Source: Ruegeria sp. A3M17
GTDB taxonomy: Bacteria > Pseudomonadota > Alphaproteobacteria > Rhodobacterales > Rhodobacteraceae
Assembly (NCBI RefSeq): GCF_003318255.1
Contig: NZ_QOCF01000025.1
Location: 1 to 64,000, forward strand
Length of the DNA: 64,000 bases
Reading direction: 5' to 3'
The notes under the pieces were generated by a model. The model was given only the letters and a program-made list of their open reading frames with translations, had not been told where the DNA came from and made no database searches. The position numbers and the translations under genes were made by a program. This document shows, one piece after another, positions 52,289 through 62,749 of the stretch. Numbering within the stretch: the stretch's first letter is position 1; each line of letters starts with the position of its first letter.

Positions 52289-52441
52289 GAGAATCTCCAA
52301 CTCTGGCAAAACGTAACAAGCACATCAAAACAAATAGGATTATTCTTGGCAAAAACACATTTGCGTTAGGACTTTTCTTTTCCAGACAGCTTGCCTAGGG
52401 TCTTGCCCAGAACGAATACGTTCCAATTAGGGAGTAACCAT

Positions 52442-53623
52442 ATGAAAAAGCTGCTTACTGCAACTGCGGCATCCGCTTTGCTGGCCGGTCCGGCTCTGGC
52501 CGAAGACGTCACTTTGGGCGTTCTGTTCGGCTTTACCGGCCCGATTGAATCGCTGGCACCGGCAATGGGTTCAGGCGCCGAAATGGCGATGGCCGAAGTC
52601 ACCGAATCCGGCAAACTGCTGGACGGCTCAAAGGTCACCGCTTCGCGCGCTGACACCGGCTGTATCGACAACGGTTTGGCGACCTCGAATGGCGAACGCA
52701 TGATCGCGGACGGCGTTGCCGGTATTGTCGGCGGCGACTGCTCAGGCGTGACCGGCGCGATCCTGCAGAACGTTGCAATCCCGAACGGCATGGTCATGAT
52801 CTCGCCATCGGCAACGTCGCCCGGCCTGTCGACCATGGAAGACAATGGTCTGTTCTTCCGCACCGCCCCGTCGGATGCGCGTGAAGGCCAGATCATGGCC
52901 AATATCCTCAAGGACCGCGGCATCAACTCGATCGCTTTAACCTATACCAACAATGATTTCGGCAAAGGTCTGGCGGATGCGATTCAATCGTCGTTCGAAG
53001 CTGCCGGTGGCGAAATCACCATCGTAGCTGCCCACGAAGATGGCAAGGCTGACTACTCGGCTGAAGTTGGCGCGCTGGCCTCGGCTGGCGGAGACATTCT
53101 GGTCGTTGCCGGCTATCTGGATCAGGGCGGTCTGGGCATCATCCAGTCCTCGCTAGACAGCGGCGCGTTTGACACGTTCGGTCTGCCAGGTGGCATGATC
53201 GGCGACTCGCTGCCTGAAAACGTGGGCCCGGATCTGAACGGTTCGTTCGGTCAGATCGCAGGTTCCGGCGGCGAAGGGGCTGAAAAGTACTTTGCCATGG
53301 CCGAAGCCGCAGGATTTGACGGATCTTCGCCCTACTCGCCTGAATCTTATGACGCAGCCGCGCTGTTCATGCTGGCGATGCAGGCGGCAGGCTCGACCAG
53401 CCCAGCCGAGTATGGCGCAAAGATCATGGATGTTGCCAACGCTCCGGGTGAGAAAATCTATCCGGGTGAACTGGCCAAAGGTCTGGAACTGCTGGCCGCA
53501 GGTCAGGACATCGACTATGTCGGCGCATCGGGCGTTGAGCTGATCGGCGCCGGTGAAAGCGCGGGTTCGTATCGCGAAATCGAGGTAATCGACGGGAAGA
53601 ACGAGACCGTCAAGTTCCGTTGA
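52442..53623 (+). CDS. livK: ABC transporter substrate-binding protein, LivK type
   Basis: This is a 393-residue periplasmic binding protein with a signal peptide cut near ALA-E (residue 20). The mature protein starts VTLGVLFGFTGPIESLAPAM, the Leu/Ile/Val-binding type I fold. It should deliver branched-chain amino acids, amides or urea-like compounds to LivHMGF. The start at 52442 has AGGGAG. A terminator-like hairpin between it and livG would keep livK output highest. Confidence 0.93.
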   Translation: MKKLLTATAASALLAGPALAEDVTLGVLFGFTGPIESLAPAMGSGAEMAMAEVTESGKLLDGSKVTASRADTGCIDNGLATSNGERMIADGVAGIVGGDCSGVTGAILQNVAIPNGMVMISPSATSPGLSTMEDNGLFFRTAPSDAREGQIMANILKDRGINSIALTYTNNDFGKGLADAIQSSFEAAGGEITIVAAHEDGKADYSAEVGALASAGGDILVVAGYLDQGGLGIIQSSLDSGAFDTFGLPGGMIGDSLPENVGPDLNGSFGQIAGSGGEGAEKYFAMAEAAGFDGSSPYSPESYDAAALFMLAMQAAGSTSPAEYGAKIMDVANAPGEKIYPGELAKGLELLAAGQDIDYVGASGVELIGAGESAGSYREIEVIDGKNETVKFR

Positions 53624-53753: not shown

Positions 53754-54542
53754 ATGATCGTCGTCGAGGACGTGCACAAGCATTTCGGCGGGTTTCACGC
53801 GGTGGATGGGGCGTCGCTGGAAATCCAAAAGGGTTCGATTACCGGCCTGATCGGGCCAAACGGGGCGGGAAAGACCACCCTGTTCAACGTGATCGCGGGC
53901 GTTTTGCCGCCGACCAGCGGCAGGGTGTACATGGACGGCGAAGAAATCACCGGCCTGCCCCCGCATGACTTGTTTCACAAAGGTTTGCTGCGCACCTTCC
54001 AGATCGCGCATGAATTCTCTTCGATGTCCTGCCGCGAAAACCTGATGATGGTGCCCGGCGCGCAATCGGGTGAATCGCTGTGGAACACCTGGTTTGGTCG
54101 CAAGCGCATCGCCGACGAAGAACGAGCACTGAAGGCCAAGGCCGATGAGGTGCTGGAGTTTCTGACTATCGAACATCTGGCCGACCACAAGGCGGGTCAG
54201 GTCTCGGGCGGGCAAAAGAAACTATTGGAACTGGGGCGCACCATGATGGTCGACGCCAAGATCGTGTTTCTGGACGAGGTCGGCGCAGGTGTGAACCGCA
54301 CCCTGCTGATGACCATCGCCGACACGATCCTGCGCCTGAACAGAGAACGCGGTTATACTTTTGTCGTTATCGAACACGACATGGATTTCATCGGCAAGAT
54401 CTGTGACCCGGTCATCTGTATGGCCGAGGGGAAAGTGCTGGCCGAGGGAACACTGGACGAGATCAAGGCCAATGAGCACGTGATCGAAGCCTATCTGGGT
54501 ACCGGCCTGAAGAACAAAGACAAGCTGGAGGCCGGGGCATGA
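53754..54542 (+). CDS. livG: Branched-chain amino acid ABC transporter ATPase LivG
   Basis: This is a 262-residue ABC ATPase with Walker A GPNGAGKTTLFN near residue 36, signature VSGGQKKLLELGR, and Walker B KIVFLDEVGAGVN. The long insert with FQIAHEFSSMSCRENLMMVPGAQ is typical of LivG rather than LivF. The DEVGAGVN form departs slightly from the usual DEPxAGLN. It pairs with LivF to power import. Confidence 0.94.
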   Translation: MIVVEDVHKHFGGFHAVDGASLEIQKGSITGLIGPNGAGKTTLFNVIAGVLPPTSGRVYMDGEEITGLPPHDLFHKGLLRTFQIAHEFSSMSCRENLMMVPGAQSGESLWNTWFGRKRIADEERALKAKADEVLEFLTIEHLADHKAGQVSGGQKKLLELGRTMMVDAKIVFLDEVGAGVNRTLLMTIADTILRLNRERGYTFVVIEHDMDFIGKICDPVICMAEGKVLAEGTLDEIKANEHVIEAYLGTGLKNKDKLEAGA

Positions 54543-54641: not shown

Positions 54642-55355
54642 ATGGCTGAGCCGTTTCTGATCGGTGACACCATGACCGGTGGTTATGGCAAAGGGCCGGA
54701 CATTTTGCATGAGTGCACCATCGCCGTGGATAGAGGTCAGATCGCGGTGATCGTTGGCCCCAATGGCGCAGGCAAATCTACTGCGATGAAGGCCGTTTTC
54801 GGAATGTTGGATGTCCGGTCGGGATCTGTCCGGCTTGATGGCGAAGATATCACCAATCTCACCCCGCAGGACCGTGTGATCCGCGGGATGGGGTTTGTGC
54901 CGCAAACCTCAAACATCTTCACCTCGATGACAGTTGAAGAAAACCTTGAGATGGGCGCTTTCATCCGTCGCGACGACATCAGCCAGACGATGGAACAGGT
55001 CTATGACCTCTTCCCCATCCTGCGCGACAAGCGAAATCAAGCGGCCGGAGAGCTGTCGGGCGGTCAACGTCAACAGGTCGCTGTTGGCCGCGCGCTGATG
55101 ACTCAGCCCAAAGTTCTGATGTTGGACGAGCCGACCGCTGGTGTGTCGCCGATCGTGATGGACGAACTGTTCGATCGGATCATCGAAGTATCGCGGACCG
55201 GTCTGCCGATCCTGATGGTCGAGCAAAACGCCCGTCAGGCGCTGGAGATCGCGGACAAAGGATATGTATTGGTACAGGGCCGGAATGCTTATACCGGAAC
55301 GGGCAAGGAACTGTTGGCAGATCCGGAGGTTCGGAAGAGCTTCTTGGGAGGATAA
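54642..55355 (+). CDS. livF: Branched-chain amino acid ABC transporter ATPase LivF
   Basis: This is a 237-residue ABC ATPase with Walker A GPNGAGKSTAMK near residue 39, signature LSGGQRQQVAVGRAL, and Walker B VLMLDEPTAGVSP. RMGFVPQTSNIFTSMTVEENLEMG-like sequence identifies LivF. AAGAAGGA precedes the ATG. It is followed not by livH but by a stretch of small secreted-protein genes; livH starts 2.0 kb further on. Confidence 0.94.
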   Translation: MAEPFLIGDTMTGGYGKGPDILHECTIAVDRGQIAVIVGPNGAGKSTAMKAVFGMLDVRSGSVRLDGEDITNLTPQDRVIRGMGFVPQTSNIFTSMTVEENLEMGAFIRRDDISQTMEQVYDLFPILRDKRNQAAGELSGGQRQQVAVGRALMTQPKVLMLDEPTAGVSPIVMDELFDRIIEVSRTGLPILMVEQNARQALEIADKGYVLVQGRNAYTGTGKELLADPEVRKSFLGG

Positions 55356-55356
55356 G

Positions 55357-55730
55357 ATGCGTAGAGCATTAAAAGCGCTTCTATTGTTGGCTCCTCATAC
55401 GTTAGAAGCGCAAGCTACTTCATTCGTTTGTAAGTTCATCACCGAGTGCACTCGGGACGGAGGATGCGAAAGAAAGGAAATGAACTTAACTTTCTTTTTA
55501 GACGACCAAGAAAAGCATACATGCAAGGGAACATAGACCTGGTCCAGGTTATGCCACTAGCCGGGGATCAAGCTATTTCATTCGTTGAGCCTGCGGGAAG
55601 CGGAGTAGTTCAATCCACGTCCGTGTTGGAAGATGGGACCGCCGTTCATTCTCGGCATACAGCAATGTTCGGAGAGTTCGTTACTTCGCAATGGCATGGA
55701 CAATGTTCGAACTTCGGCGGATCAAACTAA
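55357..55730 (+). pseudogene. Frameshifted small secreted cysteine protein
   Basis: A frame from ATG 55357 gives a signal peptide and a C-x5-C-x5-C segment, then runs to a stop after ~59 codons. The next frame (-1) continues from about 55518 with a sensible sequence (MQGNIDLVQVMPLAGDQAISF, then EDGTAVHSRHTAMFGEF and a final GQC) to 55730. Joined at the A4 run near 55511-55514, they would give a ~124-residue secreted protein like the one at 56757. Loss of one A from an A5 run explains the break. Sequencing error is also possible. Starts 2 bases after livF. Confidence 0.6.
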
Positions 55731-55868
55731 TAGTGGCCGCAAACTACCGCTCTTCGTTTTAATTTCAATTGATTTGCATCGTTGTATATCCCCAAAAAAT
55801 CTAAGAAGCAGGAAAGCAGGACGTTCCGTTGAAAGTCCTGCCGTCACCACGCTGACATCCGATCTCTC

Positions 55869-56219
55869 TCACCCTATCGGATCACCACAAGACCCAAAGT
55901 CCTGTGCGGCATGCGGGCCCTTGATCGACATGTCGTAGTCAAGATTCTCGAAGTCGACGACAAAGGTAATCACGTCTTTATCCTTAATGTGCAAAAACGT
56001 CAGCGAGTTCAGCCCGCCTATGATCGTGGCCTCGCCCTTGATCTCGTCTGTCACAATGAACCCTTTGTCCGTGGCCCCTGACCGCGCCAGCGTCACCGCG
56101 TTGCCCGTGCTGTCCGAGACGCAGTTCACCACAAAATCCTCACCGTTCAGAGGATCATTCTGAGCCGCCGCAATACCGGGCACTGCCAATCCCAAAAACA
56201 AAATCGCCGCGTTTTTCAT
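55869..56219 (-). CDS. Small secreted protein, unknown function
   Basis: This is a 116-residue protein with a signal peptide (AAILFLGLAVPGIAAAQ). The mature part starts FVVNC and ends GSCGDPIG, giving two cysteines that could form a disulfide. The pattern LTFLHIKD, then DYDMSIKG and a final G-x-C resembles the protein at 56757-57128 by eye. It is on the opposite strand to the liv genes. Function unknown. Confidence 0.62.
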   Translation of the reverse strand: MKNAAILFLGLAVPGIAAAQNDPLNGEDFVVNCVSDSTGNAVTLARSGATDKGFIVTDEIKGEATIIGGLNSLTFLHIKDKDVITFVVDFENLDYDMSIKGPHAAQDFGSCGDPIG

Positions 56220-56479
56220 TTCTTGCCTTTCTGTTCCCGGAGCCGCTGGGTCTGCGCCAAGACGTGATCCGTATTCCGTAAGTTGGGCTTCGCAATTCCT
56301 GGCGAGCCGCTCTGGAAAGCTAGGGATATCCCCGCGAGATCAAAGCGTTGCCCCAAGCGGATCACTTCATCTTGAGGTTGCGTGATACAGTTCGTAGCGT
56401 CGGGCGCCATAAATTTCTGGTGACTGCGAGCATCCTCGAATCTGGTTGTTTCAATGTCGGTACGCAGGGATTTGGGCAA
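56216..56479 (-). CDS. Doubtful 87-residue frame upstream of a secreted-protein gene
   Basis: This frame overlaps the next gene by 4 bases (ATGA), which favours coding. The start is a TTG without a good ribosome site. The same frame stays open another ~28 codons upstream without an ATG or GTG, so it could be the tail of a gene that lost its 5' end. Sequence is hydrophilic; no family recognised. Confidence 0.35.
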   Translation of the reverse strand: MPKSLRTDIETTRFEDARSHQKFMAPDATNCITQPQDEVIRLGQRFDLAGISLAFQSGSPGIAKPNLRNTDHVLAQTQRLREQKGKK

Positions 56480-56756
56480 CGTTACAAGGACGGTCGTTAA
56501 ATCTGTCCAGAATAAGGCGGATTTTACGCCGGAACGGTCAGCGAACCAACCGTCATCGAATTATTTCCTGATTTTTCAATGTATAATTTCCGTAGCCTCC
56601 GATTTTCGGAAATTTCACCATTCAGAATTCTGTCCCGGGAAGGATTAATTCTCGCCATTTTTGCCACCTAGTGAGGCGCAGAAATCGCGCCCTTCAATGG
56701 CCGGTTTACCAACACATGGACCGACCTGTCGGCCAACACCTTTTAGGAGAGCTTAT

Positions 56757-57128
56757 ATGAAATATCTGGCCGCTCTTGCTGCCTTGTTGCTGCCCGCTGT
56801 CGTGCAGGCCACAACGCAGAATACACCGGGGGCTGAGTTTGTTTACGAGTGTCAGATTGAAGAGATTTGCAAGTCCGGCAAATGTACCCCTGCCGGAACG
56901 CCCAAGAAAATCATGCTGAAACGTGTTGAGGGCGCATCCAAAGGAACGTTGAGCGTCGATGGCGATGTGGCCGAGCTGCATGTTTTCAAAGGGCTTGGTT
57001 CTTATGAATTTCTGCAAATCACCAATGGCGGCAGCGTCGGTTACACTATCGACGAAAGCGGTACGCTCGCGATCCGGGCAACGGGTGCCAACAGCCGAAA
57101 CGAGCGTGGAACCTGTACGGTCAGCTGA
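56757..57128 (+). CDS. Small secreted cysteine protein, unknown function
   Basis: This is a 123-residue protein with a signal peptide (AALAALLLPAVVQA). The mature part has FVYECQIEEICKSGKC, a C-x5-C-x4-C segment, and ends GTCTVS. The same layout, with a final G-x-C, is seen in the broken gene at 55357 and more weakly in 55869-56219, suggesting divergent paralogues. AGGAGA supports the start. It lies in the gap between livF and livH. Function unknown. Confidence 0.65.
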   Translation: MKYLAALAALLLPAVVQATTQNTPGAEFVYECQIEEICKSGKCTPAGTPKKIMLKRVEGASKGTLSVDGDVAELHVFKGLGSYEFLQITNGGSVGYTIDESGTLAIRATGANSRNERGTCTVS

Positions 57129-57364: not shown

Positions 57365-58375
57365 ATGGATTTATTGAATGCGTTAGTCGCGCTGGCAAAC
57401 TTTGTCATCGTGCCTGCGGTTGCTTACGGCAGCCAATTGGCGCTTGGCGCGCTGGGGGTCACGCTTATCTACGGCATCCTGCGGTTTTCGAATTTTGCCC
57501 ATGGCGATACGATGGCCTTTGGCGCGATGATTGCCGTACTGGTCACCTGGGGCCTGCAAGCCGCCGGAGTGAGTTTTGGCCCGCTACCCACCGCGCTGCT
57601 GGCCCTGCCCTTTGCGATCTTGGGCTGTATCGCGCTTGTTCTGATAACCGATCGGTTGGTCTATCGGTTCTACCGGGAACAAAAAGCCAAACCAGTGATC
57701 CTTGTGATCGTCTCGATGGGCGTCATGTTCATCATGAACGGACTTGTTCGCTTTATCATCGGGCCGGATGACCAAAGGTTTTCAGACGGCGCGCGGTTCA
57801 TTATTTCCGCCCGCGATTTCAAGGCGATGACCGGGCTGCGTGAGGGGCTTGCGATCAAGACCTCTCAGGGCATCACTCTGGTAGTTGCCGTTATTGCGGT
57901 GGCGCTGCTGTTCTGGTTTCTCAACAAGACCCGCACGGGCAAATCGATGCGGGCCTATTCGGATAACGAGGATCTGGCGCTGCTGTCGGGTATCAACCCC
58001 GAGCGCGTTGTGATGATCACGTGGATTCTCGTGGCAGCATTGGCGACCACGGCTGGTGTTCTTTATGGTTTGGACAAAAGCTTTAAGCCTTTTGTCTATT
58101 TCCAACTTCTTCTGCCGATCTTCGCCTCGGCCATTGTCGGCGGGCTTGGCAACCCGCTGGGTGCCATCGCGGGCGGGTTCATTATCGCTTTCTCTGAGGT
58201 CACCGTTACTTATGCGTGGAAAAAGGTACTAACTTACGTCGCGCCAGAAAGTCTGGCGCCTTCGGGATTAGTGCAATTCCTATCCACCGATTACAAATTC
58301 GCCGTCAGCTTTGCCATCTTGCTGATCGTGCTTCTGTTCAAGCCTACCGGCCTGTTTAAGGGGAAAGCGGTATGA
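57365..58375 (+). CDS. livH: Branched-chain amino acid ABC transporter permease LivH
   Basis: This is a 336-residue membrane permease with about eight hydrophobic segments. GALGVTLIYGILRFSNFAHGDTMAFGAM near residues 27-54 is the LivH hallmark, and SAIVGGLGNPLGAIAGGFII is the late conserved loop. It forms the channel with LivM. The stop overlaps livM by 4 bases. Confidence 0.95.
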   Translation: MDLLNALVALANFVIVPAVAYGSQLALGALGVTLIYGILRFSNFAHGDTMAFGAMIAVLVTWGLQAAGVSFGPLPTALLALPFAILGCIALVLITDRLVYRFYREQKAKPVILVIVSMGVMFIMNGLVRFIIGPDDQRFSDGARFIISARDFKAMTGLREGLAIKTSQGITLVVAVIAVALLFWFLNKTRTGKSMRAYSDNEDLALLSGINPERVVMITWILVAALATTAGVLYGLDKSFKPFVYFQLLLPIFASAIVGGLGNPLGAIAGGFIIAFSEVTVTYAWKKVLTYVAPESLAPSGLVQFLSTDYKFAVSFAILLIVLLFKPTGLFKGKAV

Positions 58376-59685
58376 CCGAGTCCGTCAAAAACACGCTGCT
58401 TTTCATTGTCGTTGGCGGTTTGATCCTGTTGACCGGTTTCACACAAAGCTGGAACGCCGCAATCCTGATCATGAACATGGGGTTGATCTCGGCCATCATG
58501 GCGATTGGGGTAAACCTGCAATGGGGATTTGCCGGCCTCTTTAACGTCGGCGTCATGGGCTTTGTCGCACTGGGTGGTCTGGCTGTTGTGTTGGTATCGA
58601 CCCCGCCGACTCCAGGAGCATGGTCCTCGGGTGGTTATGGCATTTTTCTGGCGTTGCTTTTGGGGGCAGCAACCGTTGTGGCGGCTGTGCTGGTGGCGAC
58701 TCGGATGCCCAAGGGACGTGCCCAAACCTTGACGACTATCGCCATTCTCCTTGTTGGGTTCTTTGTCTACCGCGCGGTATTCGATCCAAGCGTTGCAGGG
58801 GTCGAGGCAATCGAACCCGCAGTTGCCGGCAACCTCGGCGGTTTGAACCTGCCGGTCCTTGTGGCCTGGCCTGCGGGCGGTTTGCTGGCTGCTGGTGCGG
58901 CGTGGTTGATCGGAAAGACGGCGCTTGGATTGCGCTCTGACTATCTGGCGATTGCAACGCTGGGCATTGCCGAGATCATCATTGCGATCATGAAGAACGA
59001 GGATTGGCTGGCCCGAGGCGTCAAGAACGTCTACGGCATCCCGCGCCCTGCCCCCGTGGTGGGTTACGAGGTCGATCTGCAGAACGATCCCAGCTTTGTC
59101 GCGCGCGCCGATTGGTTCGGGTTGGACCCCGTCATCGCATCGACGCTGTCGGTCAAACTGGGCTATTCGCTGCTGTTCATGATCGTTCTGCTTGCTTTGC
59201 TGTGGATGGCGCAAATGGCGTTGAAAAGCCCGTGGGGCCGCATGATGCGCGCCATCCGCGATAATGAGGTCGCGGCAGAGGCTATGGGCAAGGATGTCAC
59301 CCGGCGCCACCTGCAGATCTTCGTGCTCGGTTCGGCCATCTGCGGCATCGCTGGTGCGATGATGACAACTCTGGACGGGCAACTTACGCCGGGCACATAC
59401 AATCCGCTGCGGTTTACGTTCCTTGTCTGGGTGATGGTCATTGTGGGTGGTTCGGGCAACAACTTCGGTGCTGTTCTGGGCGCATTCCTGATCTGGTTCC
59501 TATGGGTACAGGTCGAGCCGATGGGATTGTGGTTCATGAACCTGATCACATCGAGCATGCCGGACGGCAGCGCGCTCAAATCTCATTTGATCGACAGCGC
59601 CGCGCATATGCGTCTTTTCACCATGGGCCTTATCCTTTTGATTGTTCTCAGGTTCAGCCCAAGGGGTTTGATTCCGGAAAAGTAA
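58372..59685 (+). CDS. livM: Branched-chain amino acid ABC transporter permease LivM
   Basis: This is a 437-residue permease. IGVNLQWGFAGLFNVGVMGFVALGG and LRSDYLAIATLGIAEIIIAIM are typical LivM segments, and SPWGRMMRAIRDNEVAAEAMGKDVTRRHL is the cytoplasmic coupling loop. It overlaps livH (ATGA) and is closed by a terminator. With livK, livG and livF it completes the importer. Confidence 0.95.
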   Translation: MTESVKNTLLFIVVGGLILLTGFTQSWNAAILIMNMGLISAIMAIGVNLQWGFAGLFNVGVMGFVALGGLAVVLVSTPPTPGAWSSGGYGIFLALLLGAATVVAAVLVATRMPKGRAQTLTTIAILLVGFFVYRAVFDPSVAGVEAIEPAVAGNLGGLNLPVLVAWPAGGLLAAGAAWLIGKTALGLRSDYLAIATLGIAEIIIAIMKNEDWLARGVKNVYGIPRPAPVVGYEVDLQNDPSFVARADWFGLDPVIASTLSVKLGYSLLFMIVLLALLWMAQMALKSPWGRMMRAIRDNEVAAEAMGKDVTRRHLQIFVLGSAICGIAGAMMTTLDGQLTPGTYNPLRFTFLVWVMVIVGGSGNNFGAVLGAFLIWFLWVQVEPMGLWFMNLITSSMPDGSALKSHLIDSAAHMRLFTMGLILLIVLRFSPRGLIPEK

Positions 59686-59738: not shown

Positions 59739-59872
59739 GATTTTATACGGTATACGGATTAGACGAATCCCAGTACCGCCTTGATCCAGCCGTCTTTTTG
59801 GCCAGTATTTACGCTAAATTGATGCTTGGCCCGCGATCATTCGGGAAACCTACGAGTTTAAGAAGAGTGCAC

Positions 59873-60124
59873 ATGAATACTTCCTTCACTAAAATAGCCC
59901 TTATCGTCCCTCTGTTCGCCATGCTGGCTGGATGTATCCCGTCGCCGGAAGAATTGGAAACGGCTCCGGTAAAAGTGCAGACGCCAAAGGGTGAAGTTAC
60001 TTGCCAACTATATCGTCCAGACCGTGTGATCTGGGATCGGGCGACCAACTTCCCGGCCACCAAAATGTCGGTCTCCGAAGCGGACGCCTATTGCAAACAA
60101 GAAGGCCAGCGCCGTCTGAAGTAA
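59873..60124 (+). CDS. Small lipoprotein
   Basis: This is an 83-residue protein with a lipoprotein signal peptide: hydrophobic core IALIVPLFAML and lipobox LAGC, with lipidation expected on the cysteine at residue 22. The mature ~60 residues contain two more cysteines. The start at 59873 begins the signal peptide. No family recognised. It stands alone between livM and the convergent HerA-like gene. Confidence 0.72.
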   Translation: MNTSFTKIALIVPLFAMLAGCIPSPEELETAPVKVQTPKGEVTCQLYRPDRVIWDRATNFPATKMSVSEADAYCKQEGQRRLK

Positions 60125-62140: not shown

Positions 62141-62749
62141 ATGATCAAGAACACACTATCCGTCAGCCTGGTGACCGCTGCTATGTGGTGCGGAGCCGCG
62201 TACGCACAGGAAACGACGCAGGAAACCGAACAACAACCCCAGACCTCGCAAACTCAGGTCGGCAACGATCTGGACCTGGGTGAAACCGGTCCGCGTAACG
62301 GCGAACAATACGTCAAGGAAGAAAAAGGCGACTGGGCGATCCTGTGCATCAAGACCGATGCCGACGAGGACCCCTGCGCGATGCGTCAGATCCTGACCGG
62401 CGAGCAAGGCCAGCCGATCGCGGAAATCACTCTGGAAAAACTGCCCGAAGGCGTGGCTGCGGTTGCCGGAGCAACTGTGGTTGTCCCACTGGAAACGATG
62501 CTACAGGCGCAGCTGGCGTTTTCGATCGATGGTGCTCCGGGCAAGCGCTACGACTACCACCACTGTAACCCAGTTGGCTGTGTCGCGCAGATGGGCTTTA
62601 CCGAGGGCGACGTGGACGCAATGAAAGTCGGAACCAAAGCGACCTTGTCGCTTGTGTCGGTTCTCGCACCAAACCAACTGCTGCAACTGGAAGTATCGCT
62701 GTCGGGCTTCACAGCAGGTTTTGAAGGCTTGAAAGTTCTACAGAACTGA
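62141..62749 (+). CDS. Invasion-associated locus B (IalB) family protein
   Basis: This is a 202-residue periplasmic protein with a signal peptide (LVTAAMWCGAAYAQ) and a Gln/Thr/Glu-rich linker (residues ~24-50). The IalB domain follows: GDWAILCIKTDADEDPCAMRQIL and, later, YDYHHCNPVGCVAQMGF, with paired cysteines. Named after a Bartonella locus, the family is widespread in harmless alphaproteobacteria and its function is unclear. A strong terminator follows. Confidence 0.9.
   Translation: MIKNTLSVSLVTAAMWCGAAYAQETTQETEQQPQTSQTQVGNDLDLGETGPRNGEQYVKEEKGDWAILCIKTDADEDPCAMRQILTGEQGQPIAEITLEKLPEGVAAVAGATVVVPLETMLQAQLAFSIDGAPGKRYDYHHCNPVGCVAQMGFTEGDVDAMKVGTKATLSLVSVLAPNQLLQLEVSLSGFTAGFEGLKVLQN

Follow-up and report, generated by a model that had tools for sequence, protein, structure and literature searches.

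Small cysteine-rich secreted-type genes occupy the livF-livH gap of Liv-type transporter operons in Ruegeria and relatives

The window analyzed here is a stretch of 64,000 nucleotides from Ruegeria sp. A3M17 (G000), whose genome comprises 40 contigs and 4.44 Mb. It holds a complete HAAT (Liv-type) gene set of a Type I substrate-binding protein, two ATPases, and two permeases. Gene order is livJ-livG-livF, 1 base, A, B, C, livH-livM, and the livF stop lies 2009 nt from the livH start. Gene A, directly after livF, is termed the slot gene.

Genes of the locus in the window

52442..53623, + strand: livJ-type substrate-binding protein, by Peripla_BP_6 and PDB Leu/Ile/Val-binding proteins; start set at an internal ATG within ORF 52391-53623
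53754..54542, + strand: livG-type ATPase, by NCBIfam LivG/UrtD matches below cut-off
54642..55355, + strand: livF-type ATPase, by NCBIfam UrtE/LivF matches below cut-off
55357..55730, + strand: gene A, slot gene of the secreted cysteine-rich family, frame-broken near 55510-55540, by profile matches in two frames; intact relatives in G009 and G043
55869..56219, - strand: gene B, secreted, 116 aa, homologue of C, by blastp and profile comparison
56757..57128, + strand: gene C, 123 aa, secreted, predicted barrel of eight strands, by ORF, profiles, and structure model
57365..58375, + strand: livH-type permease, by family matches; present in 54/54 Ruegeria
58372..59685, + strand: livM-type permease, by family matches

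No recombinase-sized ORF was found in the livF-livH gap of the window. A promoter scan of the enlarged gap returned 1 site, against 1.7 in shuffles. Directly 3′ of livM, positions 59798-60124 (+) encode a small protein that has no Pfam match and, by eye, begins with a lipobox-like stretch. An IalB-family protein is encoded at 62141-62749 (+) (Pfam PF06776, E 9.7e-33).

Features and kinship of A, B, and C

The initial annotation placed a frameshifted gene, a minus-strand gene, and a plus-strand gene between livF and livH, and all three are found there. It described an early C-x5-C-x4/5-C motif in two of them, which proved to be A and C; B has a single early cysteine. The closing G-x-C is present in A, B, and C. 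Signal peptides were ascribed to all three; a heuristic supports those of B and C, and the start of A was judged by eye. The two halves of A match one profile in two frames, at positions 1-52 and 51-119.

Paralogy of the three genes had also been proposed. It holds for B and C, which align by blastp at 25% over 106 columns (E 1e-6, single comparison) and by profiles of the mature parts at E 4.6e-8, where the best of 120 reversed controls reached 7.7e-3. For A it is likely but weaker. The A halves on their own gave no significant blastp match to the others, and the A-type profile matches C at E 2e-4 with a probability of 47%. Kinship of the A type with C is suggestive only. A further Ruegeria paralogue, D, is joined by profile to B (E 3.3e-30) and C (E 1.9e-7).

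The A type has closer relatives outside Ruegeria. Within a set of about 100 proteins, a profile of 13 slot proteins from other genera matches the A-type proteins of G009 (E 1.3e-11) and G043 (E 7.2e-11). The same profile reaches 2.8e-4 with the best C protein, 1.8e-3 with the best D protein, and 0.7 with the window's own C. By these profiles, the A type clearly belongs with the slot proteins of other genera. The signature of the A family is C-x5-C-x3/6-C with a closing G-x-C.

No convincing family was found for A, B, or C in Pfam and NCBIfam; the match of C to DUF7107 was below cut-off (E 0.057). Ten slot proteins searched against Pfam, NCBIfam, and PADLOC returned chance-level matches of single members only, and the best PADLOC match was weak (E 0.011, 1/10 members). 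The B/C profile matched nothing in the PDB by sequence. Two snake-venom lectin chains, matched in the PDB by the slot profile (E 0.34 and 0.97), were taken as chance. Literature searches returned no paper that, judged by title and start of abstract, deals with the locus or the family. The model of C has eight strands and, starting at residue 31, blocks with a pLDDT of 91-95, and this paralogue alone provides a confident barrel model within the secreted family. The A-type model was poor, and its fold matches were left unused because its pLDDT was 64. For C, Foldseek ranked the C-terminal domain of meningococcal NHBA first (E 2.9e-4, TM 0.49); this match was set aside as a common barrel.

The slot gene in Ruegeria

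A survey of 54 Ruegeria genomes found livH in 54/54, and all 54 livF-livH gaps were measured. From livF stop to livH start they span 3 to 2705 nt. A slot gene lies directly after livF in 38/54 genomes, comprising 37 intact genes and the broken copy of the window. The remaining 16/54 have no slot gene and all keep livH; G002 is counted here, its ORF being without a signal-like start. Where the slot gene is alone in the gap, its stop codon overlaps the livH start by 1 base in 19/19 Ruegeria, and this lone gene is translationally coupled to livH. The single profile match away from the slot in Ruegeria lies about 11 kb from livH, in G030.

The locus was initially regarded as unusual, a transporter split by a gene cluster. 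This holds in part. In many relatives the gene directly after livF belongs to the operon and is coupled; the description applies to the B/C/D block, which is an addition in part of Ruegeria. B has minus orientation in the window and in G012, G044, G005, G006, G013, G009, G051, and G033. It has plus orientation, with D next to it, in G048, G014, G008, G045, G020, and G018. Since B occurs on either strand, the block appears to have been inverted or re-inserted. Gaps of about 870 nt in G035, G001, G021, and G022 hold another B/D-like gene and no slot gene (L076, L088; B/D matches L103, L108). B/D-type paralogues also occur away from liv; one in G038 (L233:1596-1997, +) adjoins an NMT1-like substrate-binding protein.

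Slot types and selection

The 37 intact slot proteins formed 13 clusters by blastp single linkage. For the type set, S0b was split off, G044 was merged with S3, and the window was assigned to S4, giving 13 types in 38 genomes. On the rpoB tree, a single-gene tree, slot type changes 26 times, against a shuffle mean of 26.4 (256/500 as low). The livF and livH trees each require 25 changes, against 26.3 (117/500 and 113/500). These trees do carry signal, as control clusters of livF and livH show on rpoB (20 changes vs 25.2, 0/300, and 17 changes vs 20.4, 1/300, respectively). The slot types are anciently diverged, and their distribution ignores the species tree.

Presence of C requires 8 changes on rpoB, against 10.9 (3/300), and 4 on livH. 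Presence of D has no signal on rpoB (10 vs 10.9, 90/300) and has signal on livF and livH. Presence of B, C, and D was called with an ORF filter, which missed some copies, such as B-like stretches in G040 and G010.

The five types with usable pairs, two of which rest on one pair each, have within-type dN/dS medians of 0.16-0.28; the medians for livF and livH are 0.02 and 0.04. The measured slot types are under purifying selection. Every slot pair with dS under 1.2 has dN/dS <1, so positive selection has no support. Slot type showed no covariation with LivJ, LivG, or LivH and was borderline with LivF (30/500 shuffles), in a test that covered these four proteins. A type-specific fit to LivJ or LivH was dropped for this reason.

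Evidence of exchange in Ruegeria

In pairs of genomes with the same type, the slot is either younger than its flanks or far older, and in many it is far older. Slot and flanks were compared in seven pairs with low slot dS. In G016-G004, which are not sisters, slot dS is 0.17 and flank dS is 0.68, and slot identity exceeds that of the flanks (p 1.6e-5). The slot is likewise closer than the flanks in the non-sister pair G051-G007 (p 0.022). Values of p < 0.01 were also obtained for G039-G038, G053-G049, and G008-G048; G031-G032 gave 0.01 and G052-G006 gave 0.26. Three of the four pairs with p < 0.01 are sisters on the rpoB tree, for which recombination in the flanks explains the difference equally well. 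The exception, G016-G004, is one clear non-sister case and establishes at least one recent exchange.

Two slot types were never found in one Ruegeria gap, if matches of S11 queries to the related C are set aside. Flank identity is nearly equal in same-type and different-type pairs. Exchange via the immediate flanks was dropped as there was little difference; single 50-nt windows reach 7/200 shuffles. Repeated duplication of an accessory protein, the origin first suggested for the cluster, fits the tandem arrays of other genera, whereas the Ruegeria position of A looks like one of type replacement.

The slot beyond Ruegeria

Another 133 genomes of the family, from other genera, have livH, and 56 loci were fetched. 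The gap is at most 118 nt and holds no gene in 26/56. It is larger in 30/56, and 29 of these have an ORF at the slot; some of the 29 are doubtful members of the family. In the stretch scanned, C-x5-C-x(3-6)-C occurs in 33/37 Ruegeria and 20/29 other-genus slot ORFs (53/66). All slot ORFs (66/66) have a cysteine within the last 22 residues, and 49/66 end with G-x-C.

A slot profile (A5) was built from 10 liv-linked slot proteins; remote copies away from liv could therefore escape it. It matched 40/149 genomes of the family, 68/244 of the order (all in the same family), and 2/385 of the class, one of them the window's own. The match lies just upstream of livH in 36/40 and in 57/58 further genomes, or 93/98 in total, and the distance to livH in liv-linked matches, except for the window itself, is at most 568 nt. 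By the initial annotation, its reading would be refuted if relatives had livF adjacent to livH with these genes scattered elsewhere; this is true in part. Adjacency is found, in the 26/56 loci with short gaps. Scattering is not the pattern of the slot family, which stays beside livH, though it does describe some B/D-type genes.

Five genomes are exceptions. G136 has a tandem slot-family pair directly after TRAP DctQM (L231:2150-2934). G175 has three overlapping slot-family genes after a DJ-1/AraC-type, GlxA-like regulator (L232:2012-3314), and no livH match at the cut-off used. G280 has a slot-family gene near a similar regulator, by eye (L267:2728-3123). In G185, both pieces are at contig ends. 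In G156, an A-like protein is encoded beside a serine resolvase and a phage-type integrase. A GlxA-family regulator gene is found just upstream of livJ in Paracoccus ferrooxidans, so the copies in G175 and G280 may be relics of a relocated liv operon.

Rows of two to seven motif-bearing ORFs precede livH in 19 gaps of five other genus groups; these gaps were hand-chosen, mostly for multiple matches. Of their 57 junctions, 39 overlap; a spacer of up to 20 nt separates the genes at 6, and a longer one at 12. By eye, arrays within g151, g157, and g158 look largely common to the species.

Conjugative plasmid p195_1 of Bradyrhizobium sp. 195 carries an A-like ORF of 131 aa (L268:4968-5363, +; pairwise identity 37%, E 8e-26); a recombinase gene lies 2.4 kb away. 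The PLSDB table, itself incomplete, lists no CDS for this ORF. B and C had no match among plasmids. Phage records held no match to the slot family, and phage carriage was dropped on this ground.

Proposed function

The comparisons establish the livF-livH gap as a slot for a small cysteine-rich family that is predicted to be secreted. Our preferred reading, held tentatively, is that the slot gene encodes a periplasmic protein that is exchangeable, is produced along with the transporter, and gives protection, by a mechanism that we infer as follows. Located in the periplasm or on the cell surface, the slot protein would have a protective role: its variable face would neutralise a variable antagonist or screen the transporter from it. 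Candidate antagonists are bacteriocins, contact-dependent toxins, phage factors, and secreted hydrolases. Slot types would be replaced by transfer between species, and rare types would be favoured, so that many types stay in circulation. The liv operon would supply expression and may itself be the guarded target. Both direct neutralising and transporter screening are considered, the latter because contact-dependent inhibition (CDI) toxins are reported to need MetI and RbsC.

A locus whose old types are swapped between species commonly has an antagonist to contend with. This general pattern, and types without LivJ, LivG, or LivH covariation, suggest that the variable part meets a variable outside agent. 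The coupled slot genes, signs of exchange, same-type pairs far older than their flanks, types free of the tree, purifying selection within types, arrays, mobile copies, and the lack of covariation with LivJ, LivG, and LivH were all counted in favor of protection. Counted against it were that no antagonist is known (one weak match in PADLOC, none in phage records) and that the tie of 93/98 to one operon is tighter than expected of a free-standing immunity gene. The lack of support for positive selection, the sister pairs, the near-equal flank identities, the arrays common to species, and the reliance on a single-gene tree also weigh against it. It is more doubtful that the family represents a new class of envelope protection system, in which fast-evolving secreted proteins, tandem in some genera and swapped in Ruegeria, form a guard built into a nutrient-transporter operon against toxins or phages using the transporter as entry.

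The main rival is an accessory periplasmic Liv subunit that binds LivHM or LivJ and tunes capture or gating, its variety reflecting loose constraint. We consider this possible but unlikely. Adjacency to livH in 93/98 genomes, the overlap of all 19 lone slot genes, and the 39/57 overlapping array junctions would suit such a subunit. An obligate subunit should be present wherever the transporter is, but the slot gene is missing from 16/54 Ruegeria and 26/56 other-genus loci that keep livH. The broken window copy, the lack of covariation with LivJ or LivH, and discrete types without tree signal also argue against this role.

No type replacement by transfer, as assumed for a protection protein, would be needed if Ruegeria descended from an ancestor carrying a long tandem array, of which chance left a single member in each genome. 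Rows of 2-7 paralogues elsewhere, the resemblance of each of S0, S0b, S4, and S12 to other-genus slot or array proteins, and the many same-type pairs with slot dS far above flank dS are consistent with such retention. About 13 ancestral genes would have to be assumed, cut down repeatedly to a single gene whose overlap survived. No Ruegeria gap keeps two types (S11/C aside), and in the non-sister pairs G016-G004 and G051-G007 the slot is younger than its flanks. We judge retention of this kind improbable.

Still harder to credit is a special case of protection in which the secreted protein inhibits lysozymes or hydrolases in the manner of MliC and PhiA and has diversified against different enzymes. 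The C model resembles MliC 3f6z (Z 8.2, rmsd 3.2, 78 aligned) and Brucella PhiA 7dpy (Z 8.2, rmsd 3.8, 85 aligned). Z values as high or higher are reached by unrelated barrels (9.5 for 5hal, 9.4 for a cathepsin C domain), so the likeness of C to MliC and PhiA is no greater than to such barrels. No MliC/PliC-type Pfam family was matched at E <= 1 by the A halves, B, C, or the 10 slot proteins. The loop motif of lysozyme inhibitors is of the SGxxY type, and it was not seen by eye in the B/C alignment. A neutral site that gathers functionless secreted ORFs would fit the frequent absence and the broken window copy, but is highly improbable given dN/dS of 0.16-0.28, the cysteine pattern in 53/66 ORFs, and the start/stop overlaps.

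A coupled, dispensable gene in a conserved amino-acid-type transporter operon, whose type varies among close species without tree signal although the neighbouring genes retain such signal, is unexpected. It cautions that operon position in a transporter need not imply a transport role. A secreted family unnamed in the libraries searched gains a genomic anchor, and the locus offers a testable entry to a possible conflict in marine Ruegeria and relatives.

Comparison with known systems

The gene set and order are those of HAAT (Liv) operons. The plasmid-borne operons of Rhizobium etli and Paracoccus ferrooxidans differ in that only 2-3 nt, and no gene, separate livF from livH. The small secreted beta barrel modelled for C recalls MliC and PhiA, though no more than it does unrelated barrels; the family differs from them in having no sequence-family match, no visible inhibitor motif, linkage to liv, and many types.

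In style, the nearest described system in the available part of the literature is the recombinase-associated acquired interbacterial defence (rAID) orphan-immunity arrays of Bacteroidales, as presented in an excerpt of PMC12247911. Short genes in co-oriented arrays, strong divergence, and recombinase neighbours are common to both, the last in two off-site copies alone here (PMC12247911, excerpt). Judged by the same excerpt of PMC12247911, the present genes differ in being inside a transporter operon, mostly overlapping, and secreted and cysteine-rich, with a gap without a recombinase and no known toxin partner. Co-oriented rows of the rAID type occur in the 19 chosen gaps of five other genera; the window has no such row, B being encoded on the other strand. 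The tyrosine recombinase of rAID clusters has no counterpart among the ORFs of the window's livF-livH gap; an integrase lies near the off-site copy of G156 only.

CDI toxins are reported to need the inner-membrane proteins MetI, RbsC, and YciB (PMC7858069, excerpt). No such toxin is known for this transporter; toxin entry of this kind would provide a reason for antagonistic selection on a transporter-linked periplasmic protein.
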